Of a DNA stretch of 33,174 bases, positions 2-18,639 are shown piece by piece; position 1 is the stretch's first letter; every line of letters begins with the position of its first letter. A program made the position numbers and the translations under genes. This DNA comes from an uncultured Opitutaceae bacterium. GTDB taxonomy: Bacteria > Verrucomicrobiota > Verrucomicrobiia > Opitutales > Opitutaceae. The stretch is taken from positions 1-33,174 of the forward strand of contig CAISPT010000040.1 of NCBI GenBank assembly GCA_903887455.1, written 5' to 3'. The notes beneath the pieces are model-generated. The model was not told the origin of the DNA. It was given only the letters and a program-made list of their open reading frames with translations, and ran no database searches.

Positions 2-982
2 CCCCAGCAGGACGTTCTCTATATCAACAACGGCGACGGAACCTTCACCAACGCGAGCGAGGCGGCGGGTATCTGGGCCCTGCCCCCCCATCGGACCATG
101 TCGGTGCATGCATTGGACTACAACCGGGATGGCCACGAGGACCTCTACATCTGCAACGACGCTACACCGAACATGCTGCTCATCAATGACGGCCATGGTC
201 ATTTCCATGACGAGGCGGGAAAGCGCGGAGTCGCGTTCAACGCCCTGGGCGAGGCTGCGGGATCGATGACCGCCGCGATTGGCGACTGCACCGGGGACGG
301 GATCCAGGATATCCTGGTCTCTCGCCTGGGATACGGCTCGCTCTACGTTGGCTCGGCCCAGGGGGATTGTTCCGATCGGATGATGGCCTCTGGAATCGGG
401 CCCTTAACCGCGCAGTACGTTGGCTGGGGAACCAATTTCATCGATTTCGACAATGCCGGGAAGCTCGACGCCTTTATCGCAAACGGAGACCCCTTCCGAA
501 TGGTGGGCTGGCAGAGCCTGCTGCTGGAAAATGACGGCCAGGGCAATTTCCACAACGCCGTGGACAAGGGCGGCGCCTATTTCCGGACGCCCGTCCGAGC
601 CCGCCCGAGCGTCGTCCTCGATTACGACAACGACGGACGAATGGACCTGCTGGTTGGTCTTATGGGTGACCGGACCGTCCTTCTCCACAACCGCGATACG
701 TCCGGCAACCATTGGATCACGCTTTCGCTTCGCGGGACCAAGAGCAACCCGGCCGGTTGGGGTTCGTGGGTGGAGCTGACGGCGGAGGGAAAGAGCTACG
801 TTCAGGAATGCAGCTGCCCGTCAGGCTTTCTGAGCCAGGGGGATCCTCGGATCCATTTCGGGCTCGGCAAGGCGACCCTGATCCAGCGGATCCAGATCAA
901 GTGGCCGAGCGGCGCGATCCAGACCATGGTCGATGTGCCGGTCGACCAGATCCTGAAGGTGACCGAACCCCTGCCCCAGTGA
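2..982 (+). CDS. FG-GAP/VCBS repeat protein with C-terminal ASPIC/UnbV domain, 5' truncated (CRTAC1-like)
   Basis: The reading frame is open from the left edge of the window, so the true start lies upstream; 326 residues are visible. It shows several calcium-binding FG-GAP/VCBS-type repeats with Asp-rich loops (DYNRDGHEDLY, DCTGDGIQDIL, DFDNAGKLDAF, DYDNDGRMDLL), typical of an extracellular beta-propeller. The last ~80 residues, from GNHWITLSLRG to the end, match the ASPIC/UnbV module, including the IKWPSG-type motif. Such proteins are exported and common in Planctomycetes, Verrucomicrobia and Acidobacteria, where most have no defined role. An N-terminal signal peptide cannot be checked. The stop overlaps the next gene's GTG start in a GTGA arrangement, so the two are translationally coupled at the head of the visible operon. 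The family call is secure; the function is unknown. Confidence 0.88.
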   Translation, partial: PQQDVLYINNGDGTFTNASEAAGIWALPPHRTMSVHALDYNRDGHEDLYICNDATPNMLLINDGHGHFHDEAGKRGVAFNALGEAAGSMTAAIGDCTGDGIQDILVSRLGYGSLYVGSAQGDCSDRMMASGIGPLTAQYVGWGTNFIDFDNAGKLDAFIANGDPFRMVGWQSLLLENDGQGNFHNAVDKGGAYFRTPVRARPSVVLDYDNDGRMDLLVGLMGDRTVLLHNRDTSGNHWITLSLRGTKSNPAGWGSWVELTAEGKSYVQECSCPSGFLSQGDPRIHFGLGKATLIQRIQIKWPSGAIQTMVDVPVDQILKVTEPLPQ

Positions 983-2439
983 GCACGCGCACCTGCATCA
1001 TCCTCGGGGCGGTGGCCCTCGTGGCCGCCGGATGTCAGCCGAAGGCACCAGGCGGCTCCCTCGTCCTGACGCAAACACCCGTCCAGGCGGAGCCCCTGCA
1101 AAACACCACCTTGATGGATGTCAGGTATCCGCATGGAAGCCGGGTGCTGCTGTTGGCGCCGCCATTCGGGCGCGACTCGGTCCTTGAGCTCTCCCGCGGA
1201 CTTGTCGCCGCGGGCGACCCCTGCGTTTCATGGGACGGCCGCTGGGTCTATTTCGCCGGCAAGAGCTCGGACGAAGCCATCTGGCAGATTTACAGGGTAA
1301 ATTCGGGGGGAGGCCTGCCCGAGCTCGTTACCCGGATGCCGGGGGGGGCCATGGGCCCGGCAATCGCAGCCCACGGGCAGCTCGTTTTCAGCTCTCCGGT
1401 CCCAAAGGCGGGTCATTTGTCGGCCGCTCAAGAGCCAGCCGCCCTCTACGGCCAGATGCCGGGCCACGAACCCTACCGGCTCACATTCGGGCCGGACAAT
1501 GCCGTTGATGCCACGGTACTGCGCGACGGGCGGATACTCTACGTCAGCGCAAGGGCCCGCGACAACTACCGGACCCCGAAGAGCTTGGGCCTGTTCACAA
1601 TCAACAATGACGGGACCGAAGTGACCGCCTACGCTTGCCAGGGGGACGGGGCCGACTTTGTGCAACGCCCCCGAGAGTTGGATGACGGGAGGATTGCCTT
1701 CCTCACCGCGCATTCGGGCGAAGGGGGAAGCATGGCCTGGGCAGAGTCCGTCAAGTCAGCGGCCCCCTTCGCCACGCGAGGAAGCCTGTTTAAGTTTGGC
1801 GTCGTCGGCATCCGCTCGGTGGAGCCGACGGCGGGGGGTGAAGTCCTGGCCAGCGCTGAGACCCGCTCCGGGTTGGGCCGTTCGATGACCGGAAACGCGA
1901 AGATCTTCAGGGTAGCGGCTGGTGACGCTTCGCTCAGCACCCCACTCGTTGACGATCCACTGTGGAACAGTATCGAGGCCATGGGAGTCGCGGAACGGCC
2001 CGAACCCAGCGGGCACACGACTGCCATCATGCCGGCGTCGCACTACGGCACCGTCGTTTGCCTCAACGTAAACGACAGCAGCGAACCAGCCGCAGAGGGG
2101 AATCTGGCCCCCGCAGCCGAGCTCCGCGTCTTCGTTCCCGACGGCCCGGGGCTGGCGCGCACACTGGGAACGATACCGGTGGACGCCGACGGCTCCGTCA
2201 TCCTACGCCTGCCCGCCGACGTGCCTCTGGGCCTGGAAACCCTCGACGCCCAGGGGCACGTGCTCCGACACCAGCCGCCATCCCTTTGGCTCCGGCCCGG
2301 GGAGAACCGGGCGTGCATCGGCTGCCATGAGCCGCGCAACCACGCACCCCGAAACATCCGTCCTTTGGCCACGATGCACGGACCTGCTCACTTGGAGCTC
2401 ACCAGCCAGACATCCGCGGCCCACGCGGCCACACCATGA
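979..2439 (+). CDS. Exported beta-propeller lipoprotein with one c-type haem site, hydrazine-synthase-alpha-like (shortened)
   Basis: The 486-residue product starts at a GTG that overlaps the upstream stop. This start gives a clean lipoprotein signal (hydrophobic stretch, then VAAGC, Cys19); a longer upstream frame would run antisensically through the first gene's coding frame and lacks a signal. The body has WD40/TolB-like propeller blades (for example SWDGRWVYFAG and DGRILYVSA). Near the end is a single CxxCH (C446, C449, H450) followed by EPRNHAP. This layout, propeller then GCHE-R-AP, is what I recall of HzsA-related proteins of Planctomycetes and Verrucomicrobia. Those continue into a second domain with another CxxCH, while this one stops about 36 residues after the motif. 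It is presumably anchored in a membrane facing the periplasm or outside, carrying one covalent haem. Hydrazine synthesis itself is not implied. It overlaps the next gene by ATGA. Confidence 0.72.
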   Translation: MSTRTCIILGAVALVAAGCQPKAPGGSLVLTQTPVQAEPLQNTTLMDVRYPHGSRVLLLAPPFGRDSVLELSRGLVAAGDPCVSWDGRWVYFAGKSSDEAIWQIYRVNSGGGLPELVTRMPGGAMGPAIAAHGQLVFSSPVPKAGHLSAAQEPAALYGQMPGHEPYRLTFGPDNAVDATVLRDGRILYVSARARDNYRTPKSLGLFTINNDGTEVTAYACQGDGADFVQRPRELDDGRIAFLTAHSGEGGSMAWAESVKSAAPFATRGSLFKFGVVGIRSVEPTAGGEVLASAETRSGLGRSMTGNAKIFRVAAGDASLSTPLVDDPLWNSIEAMGVAERPEPSGHTTAIMPASHYGTVVCLNVNDSSEPAAEGNLAPAAELRVFVPDGPGLARTLGTIPVDADGSVILRLPADVPLGLETLDAQGHVLRHQPPSLWLRPGENRACIGCHEPRNHAPRNIRPLATMHGPAHLELTSQTSAAHAATP

Positions 2440-4409
2440 ATCTCAAAAGAATCATCGTGGTCACGTCGTCGCTCGCCCTGGCGGTCGCCGGGGCCACCGT
2501 GGGAGGACTCTCGGGCATGCGCGAGCACGAGCGCATCCGATCAGGCCTGCCCAACCTCGGATTGGTCTCCTGCATGAAATGTCACGAGCGGGGCCTGGAC
2601 TCGTTACCCTGGGCAAAGCCGCGCCCGCACCACGACTCCCCCGACGGTATCGCCGTATCACCTGACGGCAGGACGCTGTTCATTGCCCTGAGCGACAGGG
2701 ACGAGGTCGCCGAGGCCGACGTTGCCTCGCTCGCCGTCACCCGACGCTTGAAGGTGCCGGGTGGACCCTTCGGACTCGCCCTCGACACGGCGGGCAATCG
2801 CCTCTTTGTGGCGTGCCGCAATCAGGACAGGATTGCGGTGATTGGCACGCGCGACCTCAAAGAGCTGGACTCCGTTTCGGTGGGTATACGCCCGACCGCG
2901 GTCGCATACTGCCGGACGCCAAACGGGGAGCGGCTGATTGTCCCCAACTCGGGAAGCGATGACATCTCCGTACTATCGGTAGCGCCGCTCCTCGAGCTCA
3001 CGCGCACAGCCGCCGGTCGCGAGCCGTATTCAGTTGCGGTCTCAGACGGCGGGCGCCGCGTCTACATCGCGAACCGTATGTCTGTGCACGAGCGGCTTCT
3101 CAGCCAACCCGCCTCGGAGGTCACGGTGCTCGACCCGTCCGACGGACACGTCCTAAACCGGGTAGACCTCCAATCCGCCCACCTGGCGGAGGGCGTAACC
3201 GACGTGCCAGTGCGGGGGTGGGTCATCAACTCGATGGTCCGGGTACGCAACCTGATCCCAATCACACAAGTGAAGGATGGATGGGTCATGTCCTCAGGGA
3301 TCGCGATAACCCGCCATGATGGCTCCGTGACGCAGGTTCCGCTGGACGAGGCGAACGCATACTTCCCCGACCCGTCGGGCATTGCGGCAAGCCCCGACGG
3401 CAGGCGAGCGTACGTGGCCTCGGGCGGAGCCGATGTCGTGACCGTACTAGACCTCGACCGTCTAGGAGCGTGGCTGGACCACGCCGGAGAGGCGGAGAGA
3501 GGTGACGCCCCCGAAAACATGGCGCTGTCGTATCGTTATGTGGCCGCCCGGATTCCGACCGGCTGCAACCCCCAGCATCTTGCGCTGTCCCCCGACGGAA
3601 GCCGGCTTTTTATCGCCGAACGCCTCGATGACGGGATTCTTGTCGTGGACACGACAAGCCTCAAGCCTGCAGGGAGGATCATTCTTGGCGACCGCGGCCT
3701 CGACGACCCCATTCGCCTCGGCGAGAGGGTTTTCACGCGGGCCCGCTACTCGTTCCAGGGCCAGTTCTCCTGCCGCTCCTGCCACCCGGACGGCCACGTG
3801 GACGGGCTCTCCTATGACTTCGACGGCGCCGGCGTCGGCGACAACCTGCTTGCGAACCGAAGCCTGTGCGGCGTGGCGGGCACCGAGCCCTTCAAGTGGA
3901 ACGGAAAAAACCCAACGTTGCAGTACCAGGATGGACCGCGCTTCGCGCGAGTCCTGATGAGGACCGACGAGATCCCCCAGCCTCAGCTGGACCAGCTGGC
4001 GACATACATCAAGCACCTCCCTCCGACGCGCACCGTACCCTGGAGCCGGGTAGGCCAGCCGCTCACGCCCTCGGAAGAGCGCGGCCGAAAGCTTTTCTTT
4101 GCCACTCGGCGCCCCGACGGCACGCCAATCCCGTTCGCCCGCCAGTGCCAAACCTGCCACCGGCCACCGCTCTTCACCAACCGGCTCATGACCTCGGTCG
4201 GCACCCAAGGGGCGCAGGATTCGTCGGGCGTCTTTGACACGCCGCACCTGATCGGAGTCGGCGCCATGGCGCCGTACCTCCACGACGGGCGGGCAAGGAC
4301 CCTGGAAGAGATCTGGACCGTCTACCAGAAGGACGATCTTCACGGCGTTAGCAGCTACTGGTCTAAGGAGCAGCTAAACGACCTGGTTGAGTACCTTAAA
4401 ACCATTTAG
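2436..4409 (+). CDS. Tri-haem YVTN beta-propeller cytochrome with C-terminal cytochrome c peroxidase/MauG-like domain
   Basis: The 657-residue product begins with a membrane-spanning or signal segment (residues 5-25), then an early CxxCH (C46, C49, H50). Residues ~65-420 form a YVTN/YncE-type propeller, with repeats such as GIAVSPDGRTLFIALSD, PFGLALDTAGNRLFVAC and HLALSPDGSRLFIAER. The last third is a di-haem cytochrome module with CxxCH at C446/H450 and C571/H575, and a terminal APYLHDGRARTLEEI segment (M611, H616) typical of cytochrome c peroxidase/MauG relatives. It is expected to work in the periplasm as a redox or electron-transfer protein; a peroxidase activity is possible but not shown. 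The start overlaps the upstream stop (ATGA), and the next gene follows after 7 bp. YVTN propellers also occur in PQQ-alcohol-dehydrogenase-associated clusters, which is a useful precedent. Confidence 0.82.
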   Translation: MNLKRIIVVTSSLALAVAGATVGGLSGMREHERIRSGLPNLGLVSCMKCHERGLDSLPWAKPRPHHDSPDGIAVSPDGRTLFIALSDRDEVAEADVASLAVTRRLKVPGGPFGLALDTAGNRLFVACRNQDRIAVIGTRDLKELDSVSVGIRPTAVAYCRTPNGERLIVPNSGSDDISVLSVAPLLELTRTAAGREPYSVAVSDGGRRVYIANRMSVHERLLSQPASEVTVLDPSDGHVLNRVDLQSAHLAEGVTDVPVRGWVINSMVRVRNLIPITQVKDGWVMSSGIAITRHDGSVTQVPLDEANAYFPDPSGIAASPDGRRAYVASGGADVVTVLDLDRLGAWLDHAGEAERGDAPENMALSYRYVAARIPTGCNPQHLALSPDGSRLFIAERLDDGILVVDTTSLKPAGRIILGDRGLDDPIRLGERVFTRARYSFQGQFSCRSCHPDGHVDGLSYDFDGAGVGDNLLANRSLCGVAGTEPFKWNGKNPTLQYQDGPRFARVLMRTDEIPQPQLDQLATYIKHLPPTRTVPWSRVGQPLTPSEERGRKLFFATRRPDGTPIPFARQCQTCHRPPLFTNRLMTSVGTQGAQDSSGVFDTPHLIGVGAMAPYLHDGRARTLEEIWTVYQKDDLHGVSSYWSKEQLNDLVEYLKTI

Positions 4410-4416
4410 GCCACAC

Positions 4417-5577
4417 ATGAACATTCGACACATTTTCTCGTGCCGCGCATTCGCGAACAACGCCTTGCTCTGCACGCTAATCCTTTGGTCTCGCGGTTCC
4501 ACTGGGGCCGCGACGACGCCAACGGTGGCTGCCGTCCCGCCGCTCCCACGCATCAGCCGATTCGAGAACTTTGGAGAGAAGGACGGACTGCCATCACACA
4601 AGGTGCACAGCGTTCTGAAAGCCAGCGACGGCAGGCTGTGGCTTGGGACGACCAACGGGCTGTGCGTGCGTGAACCGAACGGGGCCTTCCGCCGCTATGG
4701 GCCCGAGGACGGGTTGAGCCACGCGGTCGTGCTAAGCATGGCGGAAGACACCGAATCCGGTGACTTGTGGCTCGCTACGATGCAGGGGCTCAGCCGTTTC
4801 AGCGGGGGCAAGTTCACCACCTTCACCCAAACTAACAGCGGACTGCCCAACAACGTGGTTTACGGCGTGGCCGTCATCGACGGGACGGTATGGGCGGCGA
4901 CCCCGGCGGGCGCGGGCGCCTACCACATCAGATCAAAGACCTGGAAAATCTTCGACCAGAACAACGCCGACATGGAGGAGCCTTGGTGCTACGCGATCGC
5001 TCCTGGCAGCGGAGTGGTGTACATCGGAGTGTGGGCTGGGGGGATCGTGGAATACGACCCGAAGACCGGCAGCTTCAAGGCCTACCGCGATCCCGATGGC
5101 GATTTCCAGTTCCAGCTCACGCCTAACAGCGGGCCGATCGCCGACATAACCTCGTGGGTCGCTTACCAGGACGGCATCCTTTGGCAGGCAACCTACTTCG
5201 GCCTTTCCCGCTACGACACAAAGGATGCGACATGGCGGACGTGGGTGCAGGACAAGACACCCCTAGTGTCCAATTTCATCAATACGGTCTTTGCCCACGG
5301 TCGCGTCGCCTGGATTGCGACAGACCGAGGCGTATCGGTCACCGACGGAATCAACTGGGACAACTATATCGTCGGCGAGAACGGCCAAGGCATGGTCCGC
5401 ACCTTTCGATCCGCCCAAGACCCGCAGACCCGCACGATGTCCACGGCTTTGGCAAACGGCTTCGTGCTGGCGATCTGGGCCGACGACCACGAGGCCTGGT
5501 TCGCAACCTCCAACGGTTTGAGCCACGCCCTCTTCGATGGGCCGCCTTCCCCAAAAGCCTCCGCTTCAAACCCCTAG
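4417..5577 (+). CDS. Exported stand-alone two-component-regulator-type (Reg_prop) beta-propeller protein
   Basis: The product has 386 residues when started at the ATG 7 bp after the previous stop; a TTG 30 bp further upstream is in frame but lies inside the preceding gene. The N terminus has a signal-like hydrophobic stretch (NALLCTLILW). The rest is repeats of the Reg_prop type, each with a VHSVL-like turn and a DGRLWLGTTNGL-like strand: SHKVHSVL...LWLGTTNGL, AVVLSMAED...LWLATMQGL, NVVYGVA...VWAATPAG, FINTVFA...AWIATDRGV, and EAWFATSNGL. In hybrid two-component systems these repeats form the periplasmic sensor half and are followed by a Y_Y_Y domain, a membrane helix and a kinase. Here all of those are missing. 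It may be a free ligand-binding or scaffolding propeller for the neighbouring cytochromes, but this is inference. Confidence 0.8.
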   Translation: MNIRHIFSCRAFANNALLCTLILWSRGSTGAATTPTVAAVPPLPRISRFENFGEKDGLPSHKVHSVLKASDGRLWLGTTNGLCVREPNGAFRRYGPEDGLSHAVVLSMAEDTESGDLWLATMQGLSRFSGGKFTTFTQTNSGLPNNVVYGVAVIDGTVWAATPAGAGAYHIRSKTWKIFDQNNADMEEPWCYAIAPGSGVVYIGVWAGGIVEYDPKTGSFKAYRDPDGDFQFQLTPNSGPIADITSWVAYQDGILWQATYFGLSRYDTKDATWRTWVQDKTPLVSNFINTVFAHGRVAWIATDRGVSVTDGINWDNYIVGENGQGMVRTFRSAQDPQTRTMSTALANGFVLAIWADDHEAWFATSNGLSHALFDGPPSPKASASNP

Positions 5578-5603
5578 GCCCACTTCAATACGAGCATGCG
5601 CCA

Positions 5604-6989
5604 ATGAAAACCTCTTGTCTGTGCCTCATAGCCCTTGCCTCCGCCACTGTCGGTGTCGGCCCCACCCTTTCCGCTGGGGAACCCAAAACGTCCGCCCCCG
5701 CGACAACGCCCACCTTTGTCCCTCCGACTGAGGCGGACTCGGCATCAGGTCATCGTTTCATTTACGGGAACCCAAACGAAACGTACCCCTACTACGCCGG
5801 GGTGCCCCGCGAACTCTGGCCGTTCCGAAGCGTCGAACCCTACACGAAATTCTTCATCACTCGAATGCCGTTCCGGGGACCTGGGAGGGACTATCCACCG
5901 CCGGCAAACCTGAAGACGCTCAAGGTCGGGCTGCTCGACTCCCCGAATTATGGCCCGAACTGGGACCGTAGCGTGCGCCAGCGGGAGGGAATTATCCTCG
6001 CCGTAGAAGAGGCGAACCGCGCCCGCCGTGAGGGACAACTTCCCTTCGAGCTGATCGAACGAGAGGGCATTGCCCAATGGGGTGGCGCAGCGAATCTTGC
6101 TGCGGAATTTGCCGACCAGGGCGTGCTCGGATACCTGGGCACGATCGACGGCGCCGAGGCCCATGTTGCGCTGCGCGTCACCCTAAAGACGGAGATTGTG
6201 ATGGTAAACACTTCCGACCCTGACCCGACTCTAACAGAGACTAGCATACCCTGGCTTCTACGTGTCTTGCCCGACCATAGGATAGAGGAGGCGAAGCTGG
6301 CCGAGCTGATCGTGAACAAGTACGGCTGCAAGCGAATCGCCATCCTTAGAGCGGGCGACCGATTTGGGCGCCTTGGGGTACACACGTTCATGAATTTCGC
6401 CCGCCGGCTAGGTTGTCCAACGGTGCAGGAACTGCTCTTCAAACCGGGAGGGAACGACATTCCCCACCAGATTGCCGCGATCAAGGAGGCCGAACCTGAC
6501 GCCATCTTCTTCATAGGTGAGCCGGACGACATCGGCCGCTTTGCGAAGCAATTCCGCCAGGCAGGGATCCAGGCACGATTTTTCGGCACGGACCTTCTGA
6601 TGGAGGACCGCTTCCTGCAGGAGGCTGGGGATTCCGCCGAGGGAACGATCATCACGTGCCTCTTTGATCCCTCGCGGAAGGACCCGCTCTGGGTAAGCTT
6701 CGTGGCCCAATTTCGGCAGCGCTGGGGTCACGACCCCGACGCCTATGCCGCCTATGCCTACGACGGGGCCCAGGTCCTCCTCCACGCCATCCGGAAGGCC
6801 GGCCCGAATCGTTGGCGCATCAGGGATGAGGTGTGTAACCTCGACTTCTACCAGGGCGTGACAGGTTGGATGCAGTTCGACGGCACCGTCAGCAACATCG
6901 CCCCTGCACGCCTCGTCCGGTTTGAGCATGGACACCGCGTATTCGAGCCCGAGCCTGAATTCCTGCCCGTGATTGCTCAGGGGCTCTAG
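5604..6989 (+). CDS. Periplasmic ABC-type substrate-binding protein, branched-chain amino acid (LivJ/Peripla_BP_6) fold
   Basis: The 461-residue product starts at the ATG 26 bp after the previous stop and carries a signal peptide (LCLIALASATVGVGPTLSAGE). Residues ~25-110 form an unusual Pro/Tyr/Phe-rich extension (YPYYAGVPRELWPF, MPFRGPGRDYPPP). The type I binding-protein fold follows from about residue 110, with recognisable elements: LKVGLLDSPNYGPNWD, GIILAVEEANR, VLGYLGTIDGAEAH, KRIAILRAGDRFGR, PDAIFFIGEPDDIGRFAKQ and AAYAYDGAQVLLHAI. It is longer than typical LivJ-type proteins (~370-400 residues) because of the extension. No permease or ATPase gene is nearby, so a sensing or ligand-presenting role with the haem proteins is as likely as transport. 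The ligand cannot be read from the sequence. Confidence 0.83.
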   Translation: MKTSCLCLIALASATVGVGPTLSAGEPKTSAPATTPTFVPPTEADSASGHRFIYGNPNETYPYYAGVPRELWPFRSVEPYTKFFITRMPFRGPGRDYPPPANLKTLKVGLLDSPNYGPNWDRSVRQREGIILAVEEANRARREGQLPFELIEREGIAQWGGAANLAAEFADQGVLGYLGTIDGAEAHVALRVTLKTEIVMVNTSDPDPTLTETSIPWLLRVLPDHRIEEAKLAELIVNKYGCKRIAILRAGDRFGRLGVHTFMNFARRLGCPTVQELLFKPGGNDIPHQIAAIKEAEPDAIFFIGEPDDIGRFAKQFRQAGIQARFFGTDLLMEDRFLQEAGDSAEGTIITCLFDPSRKDPLWVSFVAQFRQRWGHDPDAYAAYAYDGAQVLLHAIRKAGPNRWRIRDEVCNLDFYQGVTGWMQFDGTVSNIAPARLVRFEHGHRVFEPEPEFLPVIAQGL

Positions 6990-7001
6990 CCGGTACCGAC
7001 C

Positions 7002-8105
7002 ATGCCTGCCCGACTTTGCGGTTCAATCGTACTGCTGCTTATCGCGCCGCTTGCGGGAGGTGCCGCCACGCCCAACGTGACACTCGGGCTCGTGGTGCCC
7101 TCTTCCGAACCGGAAGCGGTGAGTTTGCTCCGGGGAGTGCAGCTTGCGGTTGGCGATGCAAACGAGGCCGGCAAGGGGCCGGTAGCACTCGAGGTGCAGG
7201 GAAGCGGAGGCCAATGGGGCACCGCTGGCAACGACGCGGTGCACCTGATTTCCCAGCTCCACGCCGACGCGGTCATCTCCCCCTCCGACGGGGCAACGAA
7301 CCACCTCATCCTACAGGTATCGGGCCGGACACAGGTACCGGTTGCCAGCCTTTGCTCAGATTCGTCGATCACGAATGCCGGTGTAATCTGGGCAGTGCGC
7401 GTTGTCCCGCGAACCGATCAGGAAGTGGAGACTCTATTGGCCTCGGCGCAGCAACCGGGCCGATCCCCGCTCAATTGGTGGGCAATAATTCCTTCGGGGC
7501 GACCTGCCCGTCCAGTCCGACGCGACATCGAAAGAGCTGCTCAACACACGGGAACCCATCTCGGGAAGGTTCTAGAGGCCGGGGGCCGGGAGATGGACCC
7601 TGCGGCGAAGGCTCGCCAGATCGTCGCTGCAGCACCCGACGGGGTGCTGATCTGGCTGGCGCCGCAGGAGGCAGGAAAGGTTGCCGCTGCATTGAGAGCC
7701 GCCGGCTACGGCGGCCGCTTGGCGGGCCCCAGCCCGCTCGATTCGCCGGGTTTCATTTCTGCAGCCGGCGCCGCGGCGAACGGAGTATGCATTGCGGGCT
7801 TCTTCGCTGATGAGAATGCTCGCGAGCGCGCCAGGGACTTTCAAAGGCGGTTTCTAGGGCGGTTCACAGAGGCGCCGGATTTCACCGCAGCCGCGGCGCA
7901 TGACGCGGCCGTGGTCCTGATTGAAGCTTTGCGCCACGGCAAAGGTGGCTCGGCCGGCAGCCCATTCCCACTAGCGCTTCCAATAACTGGGGTAACGGGG
8001 ATCCTCCATTTTGACAACCAGGGCAACAGGACTGACCCTCTGCAGGTGATGTTCTGCGAAAAGGGCTGTTTCATTCCCCTTGGACACGGAGGCACTAAAT
8101 CATGA
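7002..8105 (+). CDS. Second periplasmic binding protein of the branched-chain amino acid type
   Basis: The 367-residue product has a short signal peptide (GSIVLLLIAPLAGGAATP) and a compact type I periplasmic binding-protein fold: VTLGLVVPSSEPEAVSLL, GVQLAVGDANEAG, VPVASLCSDSSITNAG, and a late AAAAHDAAVVLIEALRHG helix. It follows the first binding protein by 12 bp and is clearly divergent from it, so it is not a recent tandem copy. The C terminus carries a Cys pair (MFCEKGC). Its stop overlaps the start of the Tll0287-like haem protein by 4 bp (ATGA), which implies coupled synthesis. Two different binding proteins without transporter genes suggest sensing, or delivery to a transporter encoded elsewhere. 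The family call is good; the ligand is unknown. Confidence 0.78.
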   Translation: MPARLCGSIVLLLIAPLAGGAATPNVTLGLVVPSSEPEAVSLLRGVQLAVGDANEAGKGPVALEVQGSGGQWGTAGNDAVHLISQLHADAVISPSDGATNHLILQVSGRTQVPVASLCSDSSITNAGVIWAVRVVPRTDQEVETLLASAQQPGRSPLNWWAIIPSGRPARPVRRDIERAAQHTGTHLGKVLEAGGREMDPAAKARQIVAAAPDGVLIWLAPQEAGKVAAALRAAGYGGRLAGPSPLDSPGFISAAGAAANGVCIAGFFADENARERARDFQRRFLGRFTEAPDFTAAAAHDAAVVLIEALRHGKGGSAGSPFPLALPITGVTGILHFDNQGNRTDPLQVMFCEKGCFIPLGHGGTKS

Positions 8106-8722
8106 AGTCACAACGCCTGCTAGCGCTGACAACGGCGCTCATTGCGGTCACGGTGCTGGCCGTGGTCGCGCTGCCTACCGAGGCAGCTGATTCAAACCCG
8201 GGTAGTAGCCCAGCCGACGCCTCCGCGCTACCGCCGCCGTCCAACGGAGCCATAAGCCCGCAGGACCAAGCCGACGCGCTGCACTTCGTCATCGCAGCAG
8301 ACCGGGAGGCGTTATGCGGGCTGTTTCTCTCCCATGTGCCGGCGGAATCAAGGAAGGCCGCGCCCGGAAATGAATGGGCGTGCCCGTCGGTCGCGCTCCG
8401 AAGAGCCTGTGAATCGATCCAGAGCCAGGGCGCCGAATTCAGCTATGCCCTGCGATCCCTCACGCCGATGGAACCCCGGAACAGCCCTCAAACGGAGTTG
8501 GAACAAACGGGGCTGGCGTTCATCGCCAGCCATCCAGGCCAGAACTACTATGGCAGGGAATTGCTCGGCGGCCGGCGCTACTTCACCGGCGTTTACCCCG
8601 ATCTTCCGGCCAAGGTGAGTTGCGTCGACTGTCACAACCGGAACATCGGTACCGCGACGCGCCTCCACAAGGCTGGCGATACTCTAGGCGGCGTGGTGGT
8701 GAGGGTTCCTCTGGAGTTTTGA
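8102..8722 (+). CDS. Tll0287-like (DUF3365) periplasmic mono-haem c protein
   Basis: The 206-residue product has an N-terminal signal or membrane segment (LLALTTALIAVTVLAVVALP). It ends in the signature of the Tll0287-like/DUF3365 family: a variable alpha/beta region, YYGRELLGGRRYFTGVYPDLPA, then KVSCVDCHN with a CxxCH haem site (C174, C177, H178), and a terminal GGVVVRVPL strand. The family folds like a PAS domain around a covalently bound haem c. It occurs as a free periplasmic protein and as the sensor region of kinases and chemoreceptors, where it is thought to sense redox state or small ligands. There is no signalling domain here. It is the last gene of the operon and overlaps the second binding protein, so the two products may act together. 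Confidence 0.78.
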   Translation: MKSQRLLALTTALIAVTVLAVVALPTEAADSNPGSSPADASALPPPSNGAISPQDQADALHFVIAADREALCGLFLSHVPAESRKAAPGNEWACPSVALRRACESIQSQGAEFSYALRSLTPMEPRNSPQTELEQTGLAFIASHPGQNYYGRELLGGRRYFTGVYPDLPAKVSCVDCHNRNIGTATRLHKAGDTLGGVVVRVPLEF

Positions 8723-8997: not shown

Positions 8998-9074
8998 TGG
9001 TCGGGCCGGAGAGATTCGAACTCTCGACCTCTTGCACCCCATGCAAGCGCGCTACCAGGCTACGCTACGGCCCG
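8998..9074 (-). tRNA. tRNA-Pro, anticodon GGG
   Basis: On the minus strand the sequence folds into a complete cloverleaf: acceptor CGGGCCG/CGGCCCG, D arm with AGCCTGGTA, anticodon stem CTTGC/GCAAG with loop ATGGGGT (anticodon GGG), and T arm GAGAG-TTCGAAT-CTCTC. The discriminator is A, and CCA is encoded at 9000-8998. It lies 13 bp downstream of nth on the same strand and may be co-transcribed with it. Confidence 0.96.
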
Positions 9075-12728: not shown

Positions 12729-13532
12729 ATGAAGATAATCCGCCACCTCACCCCCGCAGGACCCGCCCACGCCGCGCTCCAGCCCGACGGTTCGGCGCTG
12801 GAGATCAAGGGCGACATCCTGGGTAGCTACGCCGTGACCTCGACGCTTGTCCACCCGGGCAAGATCCTGGCGCCCCTGGTTCCCGTTAACATCATGGGCA
12901 TTGGGCTCAACTACCGCAGGCACGCCGAGGAGGGGGGCAAGGGGCTTCCCCAGAAGCCGATGCTCTTCATGAAGGGCACCAATGCCCTCCAGAACCCGGG
13001 GGACCCGATCGAGATCCCCTCCCACCTGGCAAGCCACGAGGTCGACTACGAGGGCGAGCTGGCGGTCGTGATCGGGAGCGCGTGCAAGAACGCCACGAGG
13101 GCCAACGCGCTGGACTTTGTGCTCGGCTACACGGTTGCCAACGATGTCTCGTCCCGTGATTGGCAGTTCAAGCTCGGCGGCGGCCAGTTCTGCCAGGGCA
13201 AGAGCTTCGACACGTTCTGCCCGCTCGGGCCCGCGCTGGTCACCCGGGAGGACATCCCGAACCCGAACGCGCTCCGCCTGAAAACGGTCCTGAACGGACA
13301 GACGATGCAGGACTGGAGCACCGACGACATGGTCTTCGACGTCCCGGCGCTCATCGAGTTCCTAAGCGGCAGCAAGACGCTGCTGCCCGGCACAGTGATC
13401 CTTACGGGCACCCCCCATGGCGTGGGTTACGCGCGCAAGCCTCCGGTCTTCCTCAAGCCCGGCGACACCGTCACCGTCGAGATCGAGCGAATCGGCTCGA
13501 TCACCAACCCTGTCGTGCGGGAGCGGGATTAG
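12729..13532 (+). CDS. Fumarylacetoacetate hydrolase (FAH) family protein
   Basis: The 267-residue product has the FAH C-terminal fold: GIGLNYRRHAEE, PMLFMKGTNAL, then HEVDYEGELAVVIG, giving metal ligands E108 and E110, and YTVANDVSSRDWQ with the third acidic ligand D139. Substrate-pocket motifs GKSFDTFCPLGP and TGTPHGVGYARKP are also present. The family hydrolyses or decarboxylates beta-diketo acids (acylpyruvates, oxaloacetate, 2-hydroxyhepta-2,4-diene-1,7-dioate), and the exact substrate cannot be assigned. It lies 9 bp after gcvP in the same direction. Its stop codon overlaps the stop of the convergent lutC by 3-4 bases. Confidence 0.93.
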   Translation: MKIIRHLTPAGPAHAALQPDGSALEIKGDILGSYAVTSTLVHPGKILAPLVPVNIMGIGLNYRRHAEEGGKGLPQKPMLFMKGTNALQNPGDPIEIPSHLASHEVDYEGELAVVIGSACKNATRANALDFVLGYTVANDVSSRDWQFKLGGGQFCQGKSFDTFCPLGPALVTREDIPNPNALRLKTVLNGQTMQDWSTDDMVFDVPALIEFLSGSKTLLPGTVILTGTPHGVGYARKPPVFLKPGDTVTVEIERIGSITNPVVRERD

Positions 13533-14143
13533 TCGGTGAAGATCGCGGCCTGGAAGCCGGGGCCGTGGACGCCCTCGATCAGGATCCCCTCGACGTCGGC
13601 CGTCTTCGACGGTCCTGTGCACCAGACAATGTTCGGGTCCGCCCCCAGGGCGGCCACCGCAGACGGAAGGTCGGCGTAGAGGCGCGAACGCGGGATCACG
13701 GCGACGTGGGCCCAGGGCGCAAGGGCCGCCAGGCGCGACGAGGAGGTTGCGTCGTCCAGGATGATGGTTCCCGTCTCGGCAATGGCACCCACGCCGCGCG
13801 TGATGCCGAAGGAGTAGTCGTCGACCCGGGTCCGGTCAAAAGAGGTCTCCACCGTGAAGGGAGCCCCGAAGAACGGCGCGAACACCGGCCAGAGCGCCGG
13901 GTCGCAGTAGCCGTGGGTCCAGCCGCGGGCCCTTAGGCTCTCGACTAGCGCGGCCGGTCCAGCGAGCACCTCTCCATTCACCGCCCTGATGCGCTCGGTG
14001 AACTCCGCCAGCGGGTCCGCGAGCGGAGAGCGGTTGCGAGCCAAGTCCACGCCCTCCTCGAAGTCCGGGAGCGGGGCCCGCTCCCCGAGCGGCCTGAGCG
14101 CATCGCGGACCCTTGCGAGTATGGCCTCGCGATCGTTAGTCAC
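13529..14143 (-). CDS. lutC: L-lactate utilization protein LutC (LUD domain)
   Basis: The 204-residue product is a LUD-domain protein. It shows FGITRGVGAIAETGTIILDD, the usual ITxADAAIAETGT-type signature of the family, followed by HVAVIPRSRLYADLPSAV and the C-terminal TGPSKTADVEGILIEGVHGPG. In Bacillus subtilis LutABC is required for L-lactate oxidation to pyruvate. The start is a GTG that overlaps the stop of the OPT transporter gene (GTGA); the longer open frame upstream is a shadow of that gene. It is the last gene of the minus-strand operon and is convergent with, and slightly overlapping, the FAH-family gene. Its separation from lutB by a transporter gene is unusual. Confidence 0.92.
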   Translation of the reverse strand: MTNDREAILARVRDALRPLGERAPLPDFEEGVDLARNRSPLADPLAEFTERIRAVNGEVLAGPAALVESLRARGWTHGYCDPALWPVFAPFFGAPFTVETSFDRTRVDDYSFGITRGVGAIAETGTIILDDATSSSRLAALAPWAHVAVIPRSRLYADLPSAVAALGADPNIVWCTGPSKTADVEGILIEGVHGPGFQAAIFTD

Positions 14144-16485
14144 GGGACTCCCCCCTTCTGCGTCCGCCTTCGTGGCGCGAGAACGGCCTCGCGGCCGACA
14201 AGGTACAGGAAGGCGCAGAGCCCCAGGAAGAAAATCATCGAGAGCGCGTCGGCGTTGGGTCCGTTGAAGAGCGGGTTGCTCGACGTCGCCCAGTCGTTGA
14301 AGCGGTTGTCGACCGCCTCCAGACTCGGCACCCCCTGCAGGAGCGCGATCACGATGCCGGCGATCGCCCCTCCGGCGATGTAGCCCGAGGCCAGGAGCAC
14401 CCCCGGACTCTTGTCGCCCTCGGCAGCCAGCTGCTCCGGAGTGAGATTCTTGGCGCTGTGCTTGCGCCGGTTGTAGGCGTCGACCAGCCAACGCACGATG
14501 CCGCCCGCCCAAATGGGGCTCGACGACGACAGCGGAAGATAGATTCCCACCGCGAAAGCGAGCGACGGGATCCCGGACATCTCGAGGGTGAGCGAGATCA
14601 TGACGCCCAAGAGGACGAGCGACCACGGCAGCTTGTGCCCCAGGATGCCCTTGATGATGTAGGAAATCAGGGTCGCCTTCGGAGCAAAGAACTTCTTCAC
14701 TGTGGAGCCGTCGGGGCGCTTGAAGTGCGTGCCGTTGATCCCGGGGTCCACGAGCCAGACCGCGCGGCCCGAGGGGTCCACGAGGTACTTCTCGGCGGCG
14801 CCGCCCGCCGGGTCGCTCCGGTGCCAGACCAGGTAGGTCGCCCCATCGTCGCGAGCCTGCGGGCCCCTTATCCGGTCGTGCTCGGTGAGAGTCGACGGAT
14901 CCACATGGAGGCCCTCCGAGGATACTGACGGTACCGGAATGTAGGTCGAGGCCGAGTCGTTTAAGGCAAGAAGCATGGGCCCAAGGACGACCGCTGAGGC
15001 AAACGACCCGAAGAGGATCGCCACCTGGAGGTATTTTGGCGTGGCCCCGAGGATGTAGCCGGTCTTCAGGTCCTGGGAGGTGCTGCCCCCGTTGGACGAG
15101 GCGATGCAGACGATGGCGCCGATCGAGAGGGCCGTCACGTAGTAGGCGCTCCCAGTCCAGCCCACCAGAAGGAAGATCAGGCAGGTGAGGAGAAGGGTCG
15201 CAATCGTCATCCCCGATATCGGGTTTGAGGACGAGCCGATCTCGCCGGTGAGCCGTGAGGAGACGGTGACGAAAAGGAAACCGAAGAGAACGATGAGCGC
15301 GGCTCCGGCGAGCTTCGTCCCTATCCCCGCGTCCAGGAGCATCGGGGCCGAGACGATCGCCGCCATGAGGACAACAATCCCGATGCCGACGAACTTCATC
15401 GAAAGGTCCCGCTCCGTGCGCGGGACCTCGCCGACGGCGGACTCCCCCCGCCCCGGGTTGAGGAAACCGACGTCCCTGAGGCCTTCCCTCAGCCCGTGCC
15501 AGATGGTCGGGAGCGATCGCAGGAGGCTGATGATGCCCCCGGCCGCAACGGCTCCGGAGCCGATGTAGAGGATATAGGCGCCGCGGACGTCGTCCGGGGC
15601 CATGTCGGCGATCGGTATCTTCCCGGGGGCCACCGGGGCGCCGATGTGCTCGCCGAAGAACTTGATCATCGGGATCAGCACGAGGTAGGAGAGCACGCCT
15701 CCGCCGCACATGAGCGCCGCGATCCGCGGCCCGATGATGTAGCCGATCCCGAGAAGCTCGGGCGAAATCTCCGCGCTCACCGACGCCCCGTTGAACGGGG
15801 CGCCAAAGACCTTCTCGGGTGTGTCCTTCCAGAGGCGGGCCGCACGGTTGAGCACGTTGTAGACGATGCCGATCCCGAGCCCGGTGAAGATGGCCCTCGC
15901 ACCGGGAGCCTGGCCGAGGCCCGCGGCCTCGGCTTCCCGCATCTCGGTGGCGGCCCCGGGGGAGGCGTGGAGCCGGTCCTCAGCAGAGGCCCCGGCCTTC
16001 AGGACCGCCGCGCACGCCGTCCCCTCGGGGTATTTGAGGATCCCGTGCTCCTTCACAATTAGGGCCCGCCTCAAGGGGATCATCATCAGGATTCCGAGCA
16101 GGCCGCCGAGAACCGAGACCAGGAGCACCCGGGTAAGCTCGAGGTCGAAGCCGAGGATCATGATTGCGGGCATTGTCACGCCCACGCCAAAAGCCAGTGA
16201 CTCCCCCGCCGATCCCGCGGTTTGGGTCACGTTGTTCTCGAGGATCGTGGCGTCGCGGATGCCGAGCTTTGATAGCATCCTGAAGAGGGCGAGCGAGATG
16301 ACCGCTACGGGGATCGAGGCGCTCACCGTCAGGCCAACCTTCAGGACCAGGTAGAGCGACGAGGCGCCGAAGAGCGTCCCGAGAACAATCCCGGTGATGA
16401 TCGCCCTGGCCGTGAACTCGCGCATCCGAGTCTCAGGCAGGATGAAGGGCTCGTGCGCGGGCCTGGGCTCTTTGGTCTCTTCCAT
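14140..16485 (-). CDS. OPT-superfamily oligopeptide transporter
   Basis: The 781-residue polytopic membrane protein has many hydrophobic helices. The N-terminal EFTARAIITGIVLGTLFGASS segment and the conserved SNGGSTSQDLKTGYILGATP motif are hallmarks of bacterial OPT transporters, which import peptides (or, in the YSL branch, metal chelates) with protons. LVGREAVLAPRR lies at the C terminus. A hydrophilic stretch of about 90 residues (~514-606) between helices is probably an extracytoplasmic or cytoplasmic domain. It lies 10 bp after lutB and overlaps lutC by 4 bp, so it is embedded in the lut operon where a lactate permease would be expected. The substrate is uncertain; the upstream secreted M13 peptidase favours peptides, and lactate transport by an OPT protein would be new. 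Confidence 0.93.
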   Translation of the reverse strand: MEETKEPRPAHEPFILPETRMREFTARAIITGIVLGTLFGASSLYLVLKVGLTVSASIPVAVISLALFRMLSKLGIRDATILENNVTQTAGSAGESLAFGVGVTMPAIMILGFDLELTRVLLVSVLGGLLGILMMIPLRRALIVKEHGILKYPEGTACAAVLKAGASAEDRLHASPGAATEMREAEAAGLGQAPGARAIFTGLGIGIVYNVLNRAARLWKDTPEKVFGAPFNGASVSAEISPELLGIGYIIGPRIAALMCGGGVLSYLVLIPMIKFFGEHIGAPVAPGKIPIADMAPDDVRGAYILYIGSGAVAAGGIISLLRSLPTIWHGLREGLRDVGFLNPGRGESAVGEVPRTERDLSMKFVGIGIVVLMAAIVSAPMLLDAGIGTKLAGAALIVLFGFLFVTVSSRLTGEIGSSSNPISGMTIATLLLTCLIFLLVGWTGSAYYVTALSIGAIVCIASSNGGSTSQDLKTGYILGATPKYLQVAILFGSFASAVVLGPMLLALNDSASTYIPVPSVSSEGLHVDPSTLTEHDRIRGPQARDDGATYLVWHRSDPAGGAAEKYLVDPSGRAVWLVDPGINGTHFKRPDGSTVKKFFAPKATLISYIIKGILGHKLPWSLVLLGVMISLTLEMSGIPSLAFAVGIYLPLSSSSPIWAGGIVRWLVDAYNRRKHSAKNLTPEQLAAEGDKSPGVLLASGYIAGGAIAGIVIALLQGVPSLEAVDNRFNDWATSSNPLFNGPNADALSMIFFLGLCAFLYLVGREAVLAPRRRTQKGGVP

Positions 16486-16495
16486 TGGGGGTGGC

Positions 16496-17881
16496 CTACT
16501 TTCGGCGCGCCTTTAGCCACCTGCGGAACTCGCCGCCACGCCACGGGGGAAGCGTCCGCTTCGACTCCCAGGCCCTGAGGGCGGGAACGGGGACAAGCGC
16601 CGTCGGCAGGTAGTTGATCGCCCTGCCCGCCAATAGCGCGGATCTCCACGCCACGGGCTGCGTGGCGAGGATAGCCCAGGCCCCCATGGGCGGTGTTCCC
16701 GGTGACGGGACCCCCTCCCGGTGAGCGCGGTCCCGGAGCCTGAGCAGCAGGTCCGGGATAGGGATGTTCACCGGGCAGACCTCGTTGCACGCCCCGCACA
16801 GGCTTGAGGCCTTCGGGAGGTCGGCCTTCTCAGGGAAACGCTTTCCGAGCAGGAGCGGCGACAGCACGGCCCCCACGGGCCCGGGGTACACGCTACGGTA
16901 GGCGTGCCCGCCAGACTGGCGGTAGACGGGGCACACGTTCAGGCAGGCCCCGCAGCGGATGCAGCGCAGGATGTCGCGGCACTCGGTCGCCAGGACCTCG
17001 GTCCTGCCGTTGTCGACGAGGATCACGTGCATCTCCTCCGGACCGTCGGGCTGCCCTGCCCCCCTCGGACCGCTGATGAACTCGTTGTAGACCGTCAAGT
17101 GCTGGCCCGTGCCCGAGCGCGCCAGGAGGTTCAGGAAGAGACCGAGGTCCCTGTCCCTCGGCAGGATCTTCTCGATCCCGACCAGCACGATGTGGCAGCG
17201 CGTCGCCGCCAGGCAGAAACGGGAGTTCCCCTCGTTGGTGACCACGACGACTCGCCCGCTCTCCGCCACCACGAAGTTAGCCCCCGTGAGCCCCACGTCC
17301 GCCTCGAGGTACTTGTGCCTGAGGAAGCCTCGCGCGCGCCGCGTGATCTCCTCCGGCCGGTCATCGTAGGCGCCAAGACCGTTCTTCTCGAACGTCTCGG
17401 CGATCTGACGCCGGTTCTTGTGCATGATCGGCTTGATGATGTGCGAGGGGTGATCGTGATCGAGCTGCACGATGAACTCGCCGAGGTCCGTCTCGAGTGA
17501 CTCGATGCCCCGCTTGGTCAGGTAGTCCTCTAGCCCTATCTCCTCGCTCACCATGGTCTTGGCCTTGACGAGCTTGCGGGCGCCGCGCGCCTTCATGATC
17601 CCGTGGACCGCCTCGCAGGCGGCCTCGGCCGTGGACGCCCAATGCACCTTGGCGCCGTTTGCTAGGAGCCTCGCCTCGAGCGCCGGCAGGTAGGTGTCCA
17701 AGTTCTCGACCACGTGCTGCTTGACCTCGCCCGCCAGTTCTCGGAGCCGGTCCGGGTCGGCGTAGTGGTCGAAGAGGACCTTCGTGCGCTTGTCATAGCC
17801 CGACTTCGAGCCGTCGTACACGGAGGCCCGGGTCTCGGCCGGAAGTGCCGCCGCAGCGCGGTCTATGGGCTGGGTCCTCAT
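16496..17881 (-). CDS. lutB: L-lactate utilization iron-sulfur protein LutB
   Basis: The 461-residue product has an N-terminal LUD domain (roughly residues 60-290; VGLTGANFVVAESGRVVVVTN, ATRCHIVLVGIEKILP). A two-cluster ferredoxin-type domain follows with CIRCGACLNVCP (C307, C310, C313, C317) and SLCGACNEVCPVNIP (C362, C365, C369), as in LutB/YkgF. LutB is the iron-sulfur subunit of the three-protein LutABC L-lactate-oxidising system. The ATG at 17881 overlaps the lutA stop (ATGA); the open frame continuing upstream is a shadow. The C-terminal ~90 residues carry the usual LutB tail. It is followed 10 bp later by the OPT transporter gene rather than by lutC. Confidence 0.95.
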   Translation of the reverse strand: MRTQPIDRAAAALPAETRASVYDGSKSGYDKRTKVLFDHYADPDRLRELAGEVKQHVVENLDTYLPALEARLLANGAKVHWASTAEAACEAVHGIMKARGARKLVKAKTMVSEEIGLEDYLTKRGIESLETDLGEFIVQLDHDHPSHIIKPIMHKNRRQIAETFEKNGLGAYDDRPEEITRRARGFLRHKYLEADVGLTGANFVVAESGRVVVVTNEGNSRFCLAATRCHIVLVGIEKILPRDRDLGLFLNLLARSGTGQHLTVYNEFISGPRGAGQPDGPEEMHVILVDNGRTEVLATECRDILRCIRCGACLNVCPVYRQSGGHAYRSVYPGPVGAVLSPLLLGKRFPEKADLPKASSLCGACNEVCPVNIPIPDLLLRLRDRAHREGVPSPGTPPMGAWAILATQPVAWRSALLAGRAINYLPTALVPVPALRAWESKRTLPPWRGGEFRRWLKARRK

Positions 17882-18639
17882 GGCTTCGCCAGGACGGCGT
17901 CCCGCAGCACCTGTGCAACGTGCATCGTGCGGAGGGGCTTCCCCTCCTTCGTTGCAATGCCCCCCAGGTGCATGAGGCACCCCATGTCGCCCGAGACAAG
18001 CACATCGGGTGACGCCTGTCGGACGTGGTCCAGCTTCAGAGCTCCCATTGAACCGGAGACGTGGGGGAAGGAGACCGAGAAAGTTCCCCCAAACCCGCAG
18101 CACTGCTCGCCCTCGCCGAACTCGACCATCCTGACGCCCTCTATGGAGCCGAGAAGGAGCGCGACGGCGTCGCTGCTCCCGGTGCCGCGCGTGTGGCAGG
18201 AGCGGTGAAGGGCGAGCCTGGCGTCGAAACGCCCGGGCCACGAGCGTATCCCGAGGCCGTTGACGATGAAGTCCCCGAGCTCCCATGTCCGGTTTCCGAG
18301 GGCTGTGACCGCCCCCAGGTCCGGTTGCCCCTCAAACGCCAGCCTGGCGCCGTGAAAGAGCATCGCCGCGCAGGAACCGGAGGGCACCACGACCGGTTCC
18401 GGGGAGGCGAAGGTGGACACGGCATGGCGCACGACCTTGCGCGACGCCGACCAGTCGCCCCCGTTGAAGGCGGGCTGGCCGCAGCAGGTCTGTCCCTCCG
18501 GAAACAACACCTCGCAGCCAAGGCGCTCGAGCACCTCGACCGTGGCGGCGGCCACGTCGTCGTGGAACGCGTCGCAGAGGCAGGTGGCCATCAGCTGGAC
18601 CCGCCTGCCCTTTAAGGGTGCTCTTCCCTCGGTCAACAT
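17878..18639 (-). CDS. lutA: L-lactate utilization protein LutA (CCG-domain Fe-S oxidoreductase)
   Basis: The 253-residue product has two cysteine-rich CCG domains: TCCGQPAFNGG (C52, C53) and EQCCGFGGTFSV (C180, C181), as in LutA/YkgE and the HdrB/GlpC group, which bind unusual iron-sulfur clusters. It begins with MATCLCDAF-type motifs after a short lead. I place the start at the ATG whose first base is the last base of the M13 peptidase stop (TGATG). A GTG one codon upstream is also possible. This tight junction suggests translational coupling to the peptidase gene. Its own stop overlaps lutB. Confidence 0.94.
   Translation of the reverse strand: MLTEGRAPLKGRRVQLMATCLCDAFHDDVAAATVEVLERLGCEVLFPEGQTCCGQPAFNGGDWSASRKVVRHAVSTFASPEPVVVPSGSCAAMLFHGARLAFEGQPDLGAVTALGNRTWELGDFIVNGLGIRSWPGRFDARLALHRSCHTRGTGSSDAVALLLGSIEGVRMVEFGEGEQCCGFGGTFSVSFPHVSGSMGALKLDHVRQASPDVLVSGDMGCLMHLGGIATKEGKPLRTMHVAQVLRDAVLAKP

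Follow-up and report, generated by a model that had tools for sequence, protein, structure and literature searches.

The window analysed in this study is a stretch of 33,174 nucleotides from an uncultured Opitutaceae bacterium (contig CAISPT010000040.1 of assembly GCA_903887455.1), and constitutes one entire contig (G000:C40) of a 3.34-Mb genome that is 93.5% complete. Bases 2 to 8722 of its + strand carry seven co-directional genes, g1 to g7, of which g2 and g3 are distant relatives of hydrazine synthase (HZS). The features are as follows, with the best supporting matches in brackets, and the shared letters of adjoining coordinates reflect three 4-bp overlaps, at g1/g2 (GTGA), g2/g3 (ATGA) and g6/g7 (ATGA).

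2..982, + strand: g1, FG-GAP/ASPIC (CRTAC1-type) propeller protein, truncated at its 5' side by the contig edge (Pfam FG-GAP_3 1e-21, UnbV_ASPIC 1.7e-19)
979..2439, + strand: g2, HzsA-like lipoprotein with a propeller, an HZS_alpha middle domain and a single haem motif at the alpha-I position, lacking an alpha-II domain (PF18582 8.9e-16)
2436..4409, + strand: g3, HzsB-HzsC-like fusion with an N-terminal haem (CMKCH), a YVTN propeller and a di-haem domain of the cytochrome c peroxidase (CCP)/MauG type (NCBIfam hydrazine_BC 147.5 bits; Pfam Lactonase/CCP_MauG)
4417..5577, + strand: g4, Reg_prop propeller protein (PF07494 3.8e-12)
5604..6989, + strand: g5, binding protein 1, Peripla_BP_6, LivJ-type (PF13458 7.7e-38; also an ANF_receptor match)
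7002..8105, + strand: g6, binding protein 2, Peripla_BP_6 (PF13458 2.4e-25)
8102..8722, + strand: g7, Tll0287-like mono-haem protein, accessory, one CxxCH (PF11845 1.3e-11)

The remaining intergenic gaps, g3/g4, g4/g5 and g5/g6, measure 7, 26 and 12 bp. An earlier note, made from the sequence alone, had described this seven-gene layout with its families, overlaps and gaps of at most 26 bp, and open reading frames (ORFs) and Pfam bore it out; its view that propellers, haems and binding proteins make up an exported module is likewise supported, signal peptides and export signals having been assessed by eye. The anatomy given there was thus right, but the HZS homology of g2 and g3 had been missed. 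The g2 gene starts with GTG and encodes a 486-aa protein with the lipobox LVAAGC and a single CxxCH near its end, g3 has three CxxCH at residues 46, 446 and 571, and g4 was taken from its ATG within a longer ORF that has a TTG start at 4387. In the PDB, g5 matched branched-chain-type binding proteins (best 3td9_A, 1.8e-22), g6 gave weak matches (best 3.6e-6), and g7 had no sequence match at E<=0.1. As the window is an entire contig, the region upstream of g1 is not readable; a full-length g1 relative lies at 6679-8397 of L066, one of the related loci described below.

By sequence and by fold, g2 and g3 are distant homologs of HZS alpha and of a fused HZS beta-gamma, respectively, the gamma part of g3 by sequence alone. 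The top NCBIfam matches of both proteins were hydrazine synthase models, all far below their cut-offs: g3 scored 147.5 bits with the beta-gamma fusion model (cut-off 1250), 124.4 with beta (560) and 58 with gamma (625), and g2 scored 59.4 with alpha (800). As a single sequence, g2 matched HzsA (5c2v_A, 3.6e-10) as its sole PDB entry at E<=1e-3, and g3 matched HzsB (5c2v_B, 3.4e-30, g3 residues 72-406) and HzsC (5c2v_C, 3.7e-14). Profile searches of the PDB raised these to 2.9e-42 for HzsA with g2, and to 1.3e-60 for HzsB and 3.6e-32 for HzsC with g3, a surface-layer YVTN protein (1l0q, 2.5e-72) outscoring HzsB in the g3 search. The AlphaFold model of g2 has a predicted local distance difference test (pLDDT) score of 83.6, and its top Foldseek match was 5c2v_A (TMq 0.73), followed by TolB (0.42); the modelled g3 propeller matched 5c2v_B with a TMt of 0.90.

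Both genes recur widely. When the phylum was scanned with g3, 47 of 387 genomes matched at E<=1e-40, and four, including that of the window, were below 1e-100; a search with g2 matched nine of 132 genomes of the order, the other eight just around the middle domain. Searching public genomes with a profile of four sequences yielded 242 relatives, the best 80 of which are the 80 loci considered here; these are not all independent, since L107 and L108 are the contigs that supplied the query sequences L048 and L046, and a single assembly is the source of both L102 and L114. The gene order recurs in most of these loci, as the earlier note had asked to be checked, so it is not a chance arrangement, and g2 and g3 belong to a conserved block that also includes genes for an ASPIC protein, for a Reg_prop propeller and for a pair of LivJ-type periplasmic binding proteins (PBPs). 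Counting for each gene only the loci with enough flanking sequence, an HzsA-like gene was found within 5 kb upstream of the g3 homolog in 51 of 53 loci (in L118 it lies just past this limit), an ASPIC gene in 51/53, and a Reg_prop gene directly after the g3 homolog in 69/70, while at least one PBP was present in 54 of 56 loci and two PBPs in 46 of 49.

Two layouts of this module were identified. The layout of the window itself, with the ASPIC gene followed by the HzsA-like (A) and HzsBC-like (BC) genes, occurs in 32/80 loci, among them Verrucomicrobia, some Acidobacteria and Bacteroidota and one Planctomycetota; the order A-ASPIC-BC, which is likewise accompanied by the PBPs, occurs in 31/80, many from Planctomycetota and some from Verrucomicrobia and Acidobacteria; and 17/80 could not be assigned, mostly due to short flanks. 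Judged by record titles, the loci come from nine phyla (Verrucomicrobia, Acidobacteria, Planctomycetota, Bacteroidetes, Elusimicrobia, Neomarinimicrobiota, Gemmatimonadales, Latescibacterota and Poribacteria), and since most records are metagenome-assembled genomes (MAGs), an isolated odd title may reflect misbinning. The Poribacteria locus holds BC and Reg_prop alone, and a named strain, Lutimonas saemankumensis DP2N0-7 (L128), carries ASPIC, A, BC, Reg_prop, a Rid gene and two PBPs. Upstream sequence of the relatives, where an ordinary ATP-binding cassette (ABC) transporter or pyrroloquinoline quinone (PQQ) cluster had to be considered, was available for six of the nearest loci; in five (L066, L067, L068, L071 and L073) the gene before g1 encodes another large ASPIC-type protein, confirmed with Pfam for L066, and L070 differs.

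Pairwise divergences of g1 to g5 are correlated (r 0.88-0.97; 50 sequences per gene, window included, without a housekeeping control), a pattern that common ancestry would also produce. In a midpoint-rooted FastTree phylogeny of 110 sequences, the 80 module sequences were split from the side with HZS and 22 others, the HZS-side node having a support of 1.00 and the module node 0.31, thus we make no claim of module monophyly. The window pairs with L067 (0.96), and its group consists of Opitutaceae and further loci that share its layout.

Natural gene fusions, each confirmed by Pfam, suggest how the products group. A single gene for a 1730-aa protein (L209, 4542-9734), in a genome sampled for the Planctomycetota, joins HzsA to HzsBC, Reg_prop is fused to a PBP in L131 and L208, and two PBPs are fused in L105; because of these fusions, A seems to group with BC, and Reg_prop with the two PBPs. 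Two further genes are optional. The Tll0287-like gene occurs in 15 of the 49 loci with sufficient flank, and in 14/21 of the nearest type. A Rid/YjgF-family gene (PF01042) is present in 30/80 loci, or 21/49 when the flank is sufficient, and lies directly after Reg_prop in 25 of the 30 and upstream of the HzsA-like gene in five (examples are L069 5671-6243, L091 13014-13595 and L136 13040-13615). Rid proteins act in imine/enamine chemistry, thus their presence in the module may point to imine or enamine chemistry. As a core part, Rid was rejected, being missing from 50/80 loci; a genome-wide search for 23 loci without a local copy gave a match elsewhere in eight genomes (E<=1e-15), one of them on the module contig of L119, ~16 kb upstream of g3, and three within longer open frames.

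Variant relatives of g3 were also noted. L046 and L047, from the family of the window, have HzsBC-like proteins with four N-terminal haem motifs. The more distant HzsBC-like genes of L204-L206 adjoin the gene of a further two-haem protein, one with a match to part of the g3 propeller, and within the stretch read there was no match to g1, g2, g4 or a PBP.

The residues around the haems separate these proteins from HZS. Roles of HZS residues were taken from the texts of PMC12758564 and PMC12607021, and the g3 alignment comprised 77 loci, the window, 24 other sequences and eight HZS (three of the 80 loci were left out), L208 and L210 being placed among the others in the residue counts. Both CxxCH of the gamma part are retained in 78/78 module sequences, and the same holds for the gamma-II bis-His pair His229/His332, the window included. 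At the gamma-I columns Cys165, Asp168 and His144 the window has D, F and W: the His144 column is Trp in 78/78 module sequences, the Asp168 column is Asp in 0/78, and the Cys165 column is Cys in 62/78 overall and in 24/31 of the nearest type. A Trp at the His144 position is tied to CCP/MauG catalysis in the text of PMC12758564, and the resulting picture is that of a gamma site that would be nearer to CCP/MauG, with an HZS-type relay haem. Among the HzsA-like proteins, the CxxCH is kept in 63/64 and the lipobox Cys of g2 in 27/28 sequences of the nearest type. The column of Tyr591, the ligand of haem alpha-I, holds Tyr in 0/64; in five of the 64 a Tyr stands one column ahead, beside an alignment gap, and in the Tyr591 column itself g2 of the window has N, followed by a two-residue gap.

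Taken together, we propose, with a probability of roughly 40%, that the locus is a clade III HZS-like cluster, in the terms of PMC12758564, encoding a multihaem redox enzyme that is extracytoplasmic, has binding proteins dedicated to it and is not a hydrazine synthase. In such an enzyme, g2 and g3 would together make up an alpha-beta-gamma core like that of HZS, located outside the inner membrane, with the lipid of g2 as the putative anchor; the di-haem part of g3 might perform peroxidase/MauG-like or other small-molecule redox chemistry, the bis-His haem and the additional haem at the N-terminus presumably carrying electrons. Reg_prop and the two PBPs would be a second sub-assembly that captures a ligand, perhaps amino-acid- or amide-like, and that serves the enzyme rather than a transporter; the ASPIC protein is probably a structural part, and the Tll0287-like protein might be an optional electron partner or redox sensor. 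A more specific version, in which the PBP pair and Reg_prop are permanent subunits that load a small molecule into the HZS-like haem enzyme for possibly amine or N-N/N-O redox chemistry, the unit having spread among several phyla, we consider doubtful.

Several observations weigh against the proposed enzyme with dedicated binding proteins. Some loci lack parts of the module: neither an HzsA-like nor an ASPIC gene lies upstream in L127, ASPIC is missing from L099, Reg_prop and PBP from L102, and PBP from L129. In L112 (5259-7274, a Neomarinimicrobiota MAG), the CxxCH of the HzsA-like protein is replaced by FIGFP, with ASPIC, BC, Reg_prop and PBPs present. The Rid gene found in 30/80 loci is absent from the window, whose genome has Rid-like matches of 30-34% only. 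The gamma part of g3 is poorly modelled (block-mean pLDDT ~26-40 near the haem sites), thus the active-site geometry is not readable from the model. Moreover, a PF02653 permease is encoded somewhere in 26 of the 28 module genomes searched, with two in the genome of the window, and in L091 (genome G506) the opposite strand carries a PF02653 gene together with an ABC-ATPase-like ORF ~6 kb upstream of g3, so PBPs that feed a transporter are possible there.

These permeases favour an explanation in which g5 and g6, which are clear Peripla_BP_6/LivJ-type proteins, are ordinary ABC substrate-binding proteins that feed a permease elsewhere and stand beside the haem genes by co-regulation only. We regard it as unlikely. 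At E<=1e-8, no PF02653 match was found in G493 (CP070827.1, a MAG chromosome) or in G509 (L. saemankumensis), and in a Peripla_BP_6 search of five genomes with the same threshold the module pair gave the only matches in G493, G506 and G509, with two more in the genome of the window and three more in G483; the PBPs of G493 and G509 thus have no detected Liv-type permease to serve. The fusions of a PBP with Reg_prop in two loci and with a second PBP in one also argue against such a role. No Liv-type permease or ATPase linked to the PBPs was found in the module of the window, and ABC-ATPase-like ORFs, identified by BLAST, were limited to 5/80 loci at scattered positions; together with kinase-like ORFs in 2/80 loci, this agrees with the earlier description of a module without a transporter or kinase, neither of which is conserved alongside it.

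The CCP/MauG-like features of g3 raise a second alternative, namely a MauG/MbnH-like protein-modifying enzyme whose di-haem part oxidises Trp/Tyr of a module partner, e.g. a propeller or PBP. Besides the Trp at the His144 position, it draws on sub-threshold matches of g3 to the MbnH model (34.2 bits, cut-off 362.85) and the MauG model (21.7 bits, 443.85) and on the PDB entry 6e1c (2.5e-6). However, clustering of flanking ORFs of at least 80 aa revealed no short, conserved gene for a substrate among ORFs of this size, and we know of no HzsB-like propeller or HzsA-like partner in MauG and MbnH. Most of the families that recurred in this clustering look like antisense or out-of-frame ORFs that overlie genes of the module. 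This alternative appears improbable.

Small, too, is the chance that the locus is a periplasmic redox or ligand sensor, whose PBPs and haem proteins would sense a ligand or the redox state and relay this to the cell interior. Reg_prop was named for sensor propellers, Tll0287-like domains resemble haem sensor domains, and PBP folds serve as receptor domains, in line with the ANF_receptor match of g5. However, no kinase is conserved with the module (the 2/80 kinase-like ORFs were found with a sequence motif, and other receptor types were not searched), and the di-haem ligands are retained in 78/78 sequences. The redox signalling suggested in the earlier note is not supported. Finally, a true hydrazine synthase, and with it unrecognised anammox or hydrazine-forming bacteria, is very improbable, and hydrazine synthesis was rejected, since the homology to all three HZS subunits, the co-location of alpha and beta-gamma, the displaced Tyr of the five HzsA-like sequences and matches to the hydroxylamine oxidoreductase/hydrazine dehydrogenase family (PF13447) in 9/28 module genomes are set against the Tyr591 column without Tyr, the Trp for His144, the Asp168 column that is never Asp, a best HZS score of 147.5 against the 1250-bit cut-off, the lack of a PF13447 match at E<=1e-5 in the 93.5% complete genome of the window versus 13 and 8 matches in two genomes with above-cut-off HZS, and the like conclusion of the text of PMC12758564 for its homologs.

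With respect to the surroundings of the module, the window contains the following feature:

8998-9074, opposite strand, downstream of g7: tRNA-Pro

Farther along, at 13529-18642, an OPT-type transporter ORF was seen by eye between LutC-like and LutB/LutA-like lactate-use genes. All 182 matches of g3 to plasmid records were below 60% identity, and a role in anti-phage defence was rejected, as none of the seven proteins had a PADLOC match at E<=1e-3.

If the PBPs do serve the enzyme, the periplasmic binding fold would here be put to a use that is, to our knowledge, uncommon. A conserved module around HZS homologs, present in a named strain such as L. saemankumensis DP2N0-7, also offers a route to HZS-type roles outside anammox.

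Among known systems, clusters associated with PQQ dehydrogenases (TIGR03866 and kin) share the YVTN propeller with the module, and a periplasmic binding protein is found near them as well. The earlier note had drawn this comparison; membership in such a cluster was rejected, as g3 scored 85.7 bits with TIGR03866 (cut-off 287.3). A visual check of the ORF lists of the window, which begins inside g1, revealed no PQQ dehydrogenase, the flanks of the relatives not having been searched for it. The HZS of anammox bacteria (HzsABC, 5c2v) resembles the module in its alpha propeller with a middle haem domain, its beta propeller with the blade-6 loop region and its gamma di-haem part with a bis-His gamma-II; it differs in that the module has replaced Tyr591, His144 and Asp168, with Asp for Cys165 in the window, lacks the alpha-II domain and has an additional N-terminal haem. 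In 10 above-cut-off HZS loci spanning 6 to 11 kb, no ORF matched g1, g4, g5, g6 or g7 at E<=1e-3. In Phycisphaerae UBA1845 an hzsA-like gene lies beside a fused hzsBC-like gene, as in the module; according to the text of PMC10732223, anammox potential was considered for these hzsABC-like genes and a wider enzyme family with other substrates was proposed, and its passages on them do not mention accessory genes.

The closest system is that of PMC12758564 (Genome Biol Evol 2025), the only open-licence article retrieved on CRTAC1 with hydrazine synthase or on propeller/SBP/CRTAC1 combinations. Its text states that HZS was previously believed to be without homologs, argues that the HZS homologs it describes do not make hydrazine, places Opitutus terrae in clade I, and describes in clade III a CRTAC1/HzsA-like/HzsBC-like/two-SBP (substrate-binding protein) arrangement to which it gives no function. 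The combination that the earlier note did not recognise has thus been published. The main text does not mention ASPIC, Reg prop, two-component, regulator, Tll0287, permease, Verrucomicrob or Acidobacteri, which may appear in its figures or supplements; relative to this text, our results add that Reg_prop is a constant member, that PBPs accompany a second layout too, that several of the genes occur fused, that no permease was found in two genomes and that Rid is optional. We assigned the window to clade III by gene features, our own tree being built without the sequences of that study. As in the window, clade III is described with an FG-GAP/CRTAC1 gene upstream of the alpha-like gene (g1 then g2), an alpha-like protein with the alpha-I motif and without the alpha-II haem and C-terminal domain, a fused beta-gamma with one extra haem (g3, CxxCH 46, 446 and 571), two substrate-binding genes downstream (g5 and g6) and the loss of Tyr591 and His144. 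The module is therefore a real and widely conserved system, whose kinship with HZS and whose clade are already in print in PMC12758564.

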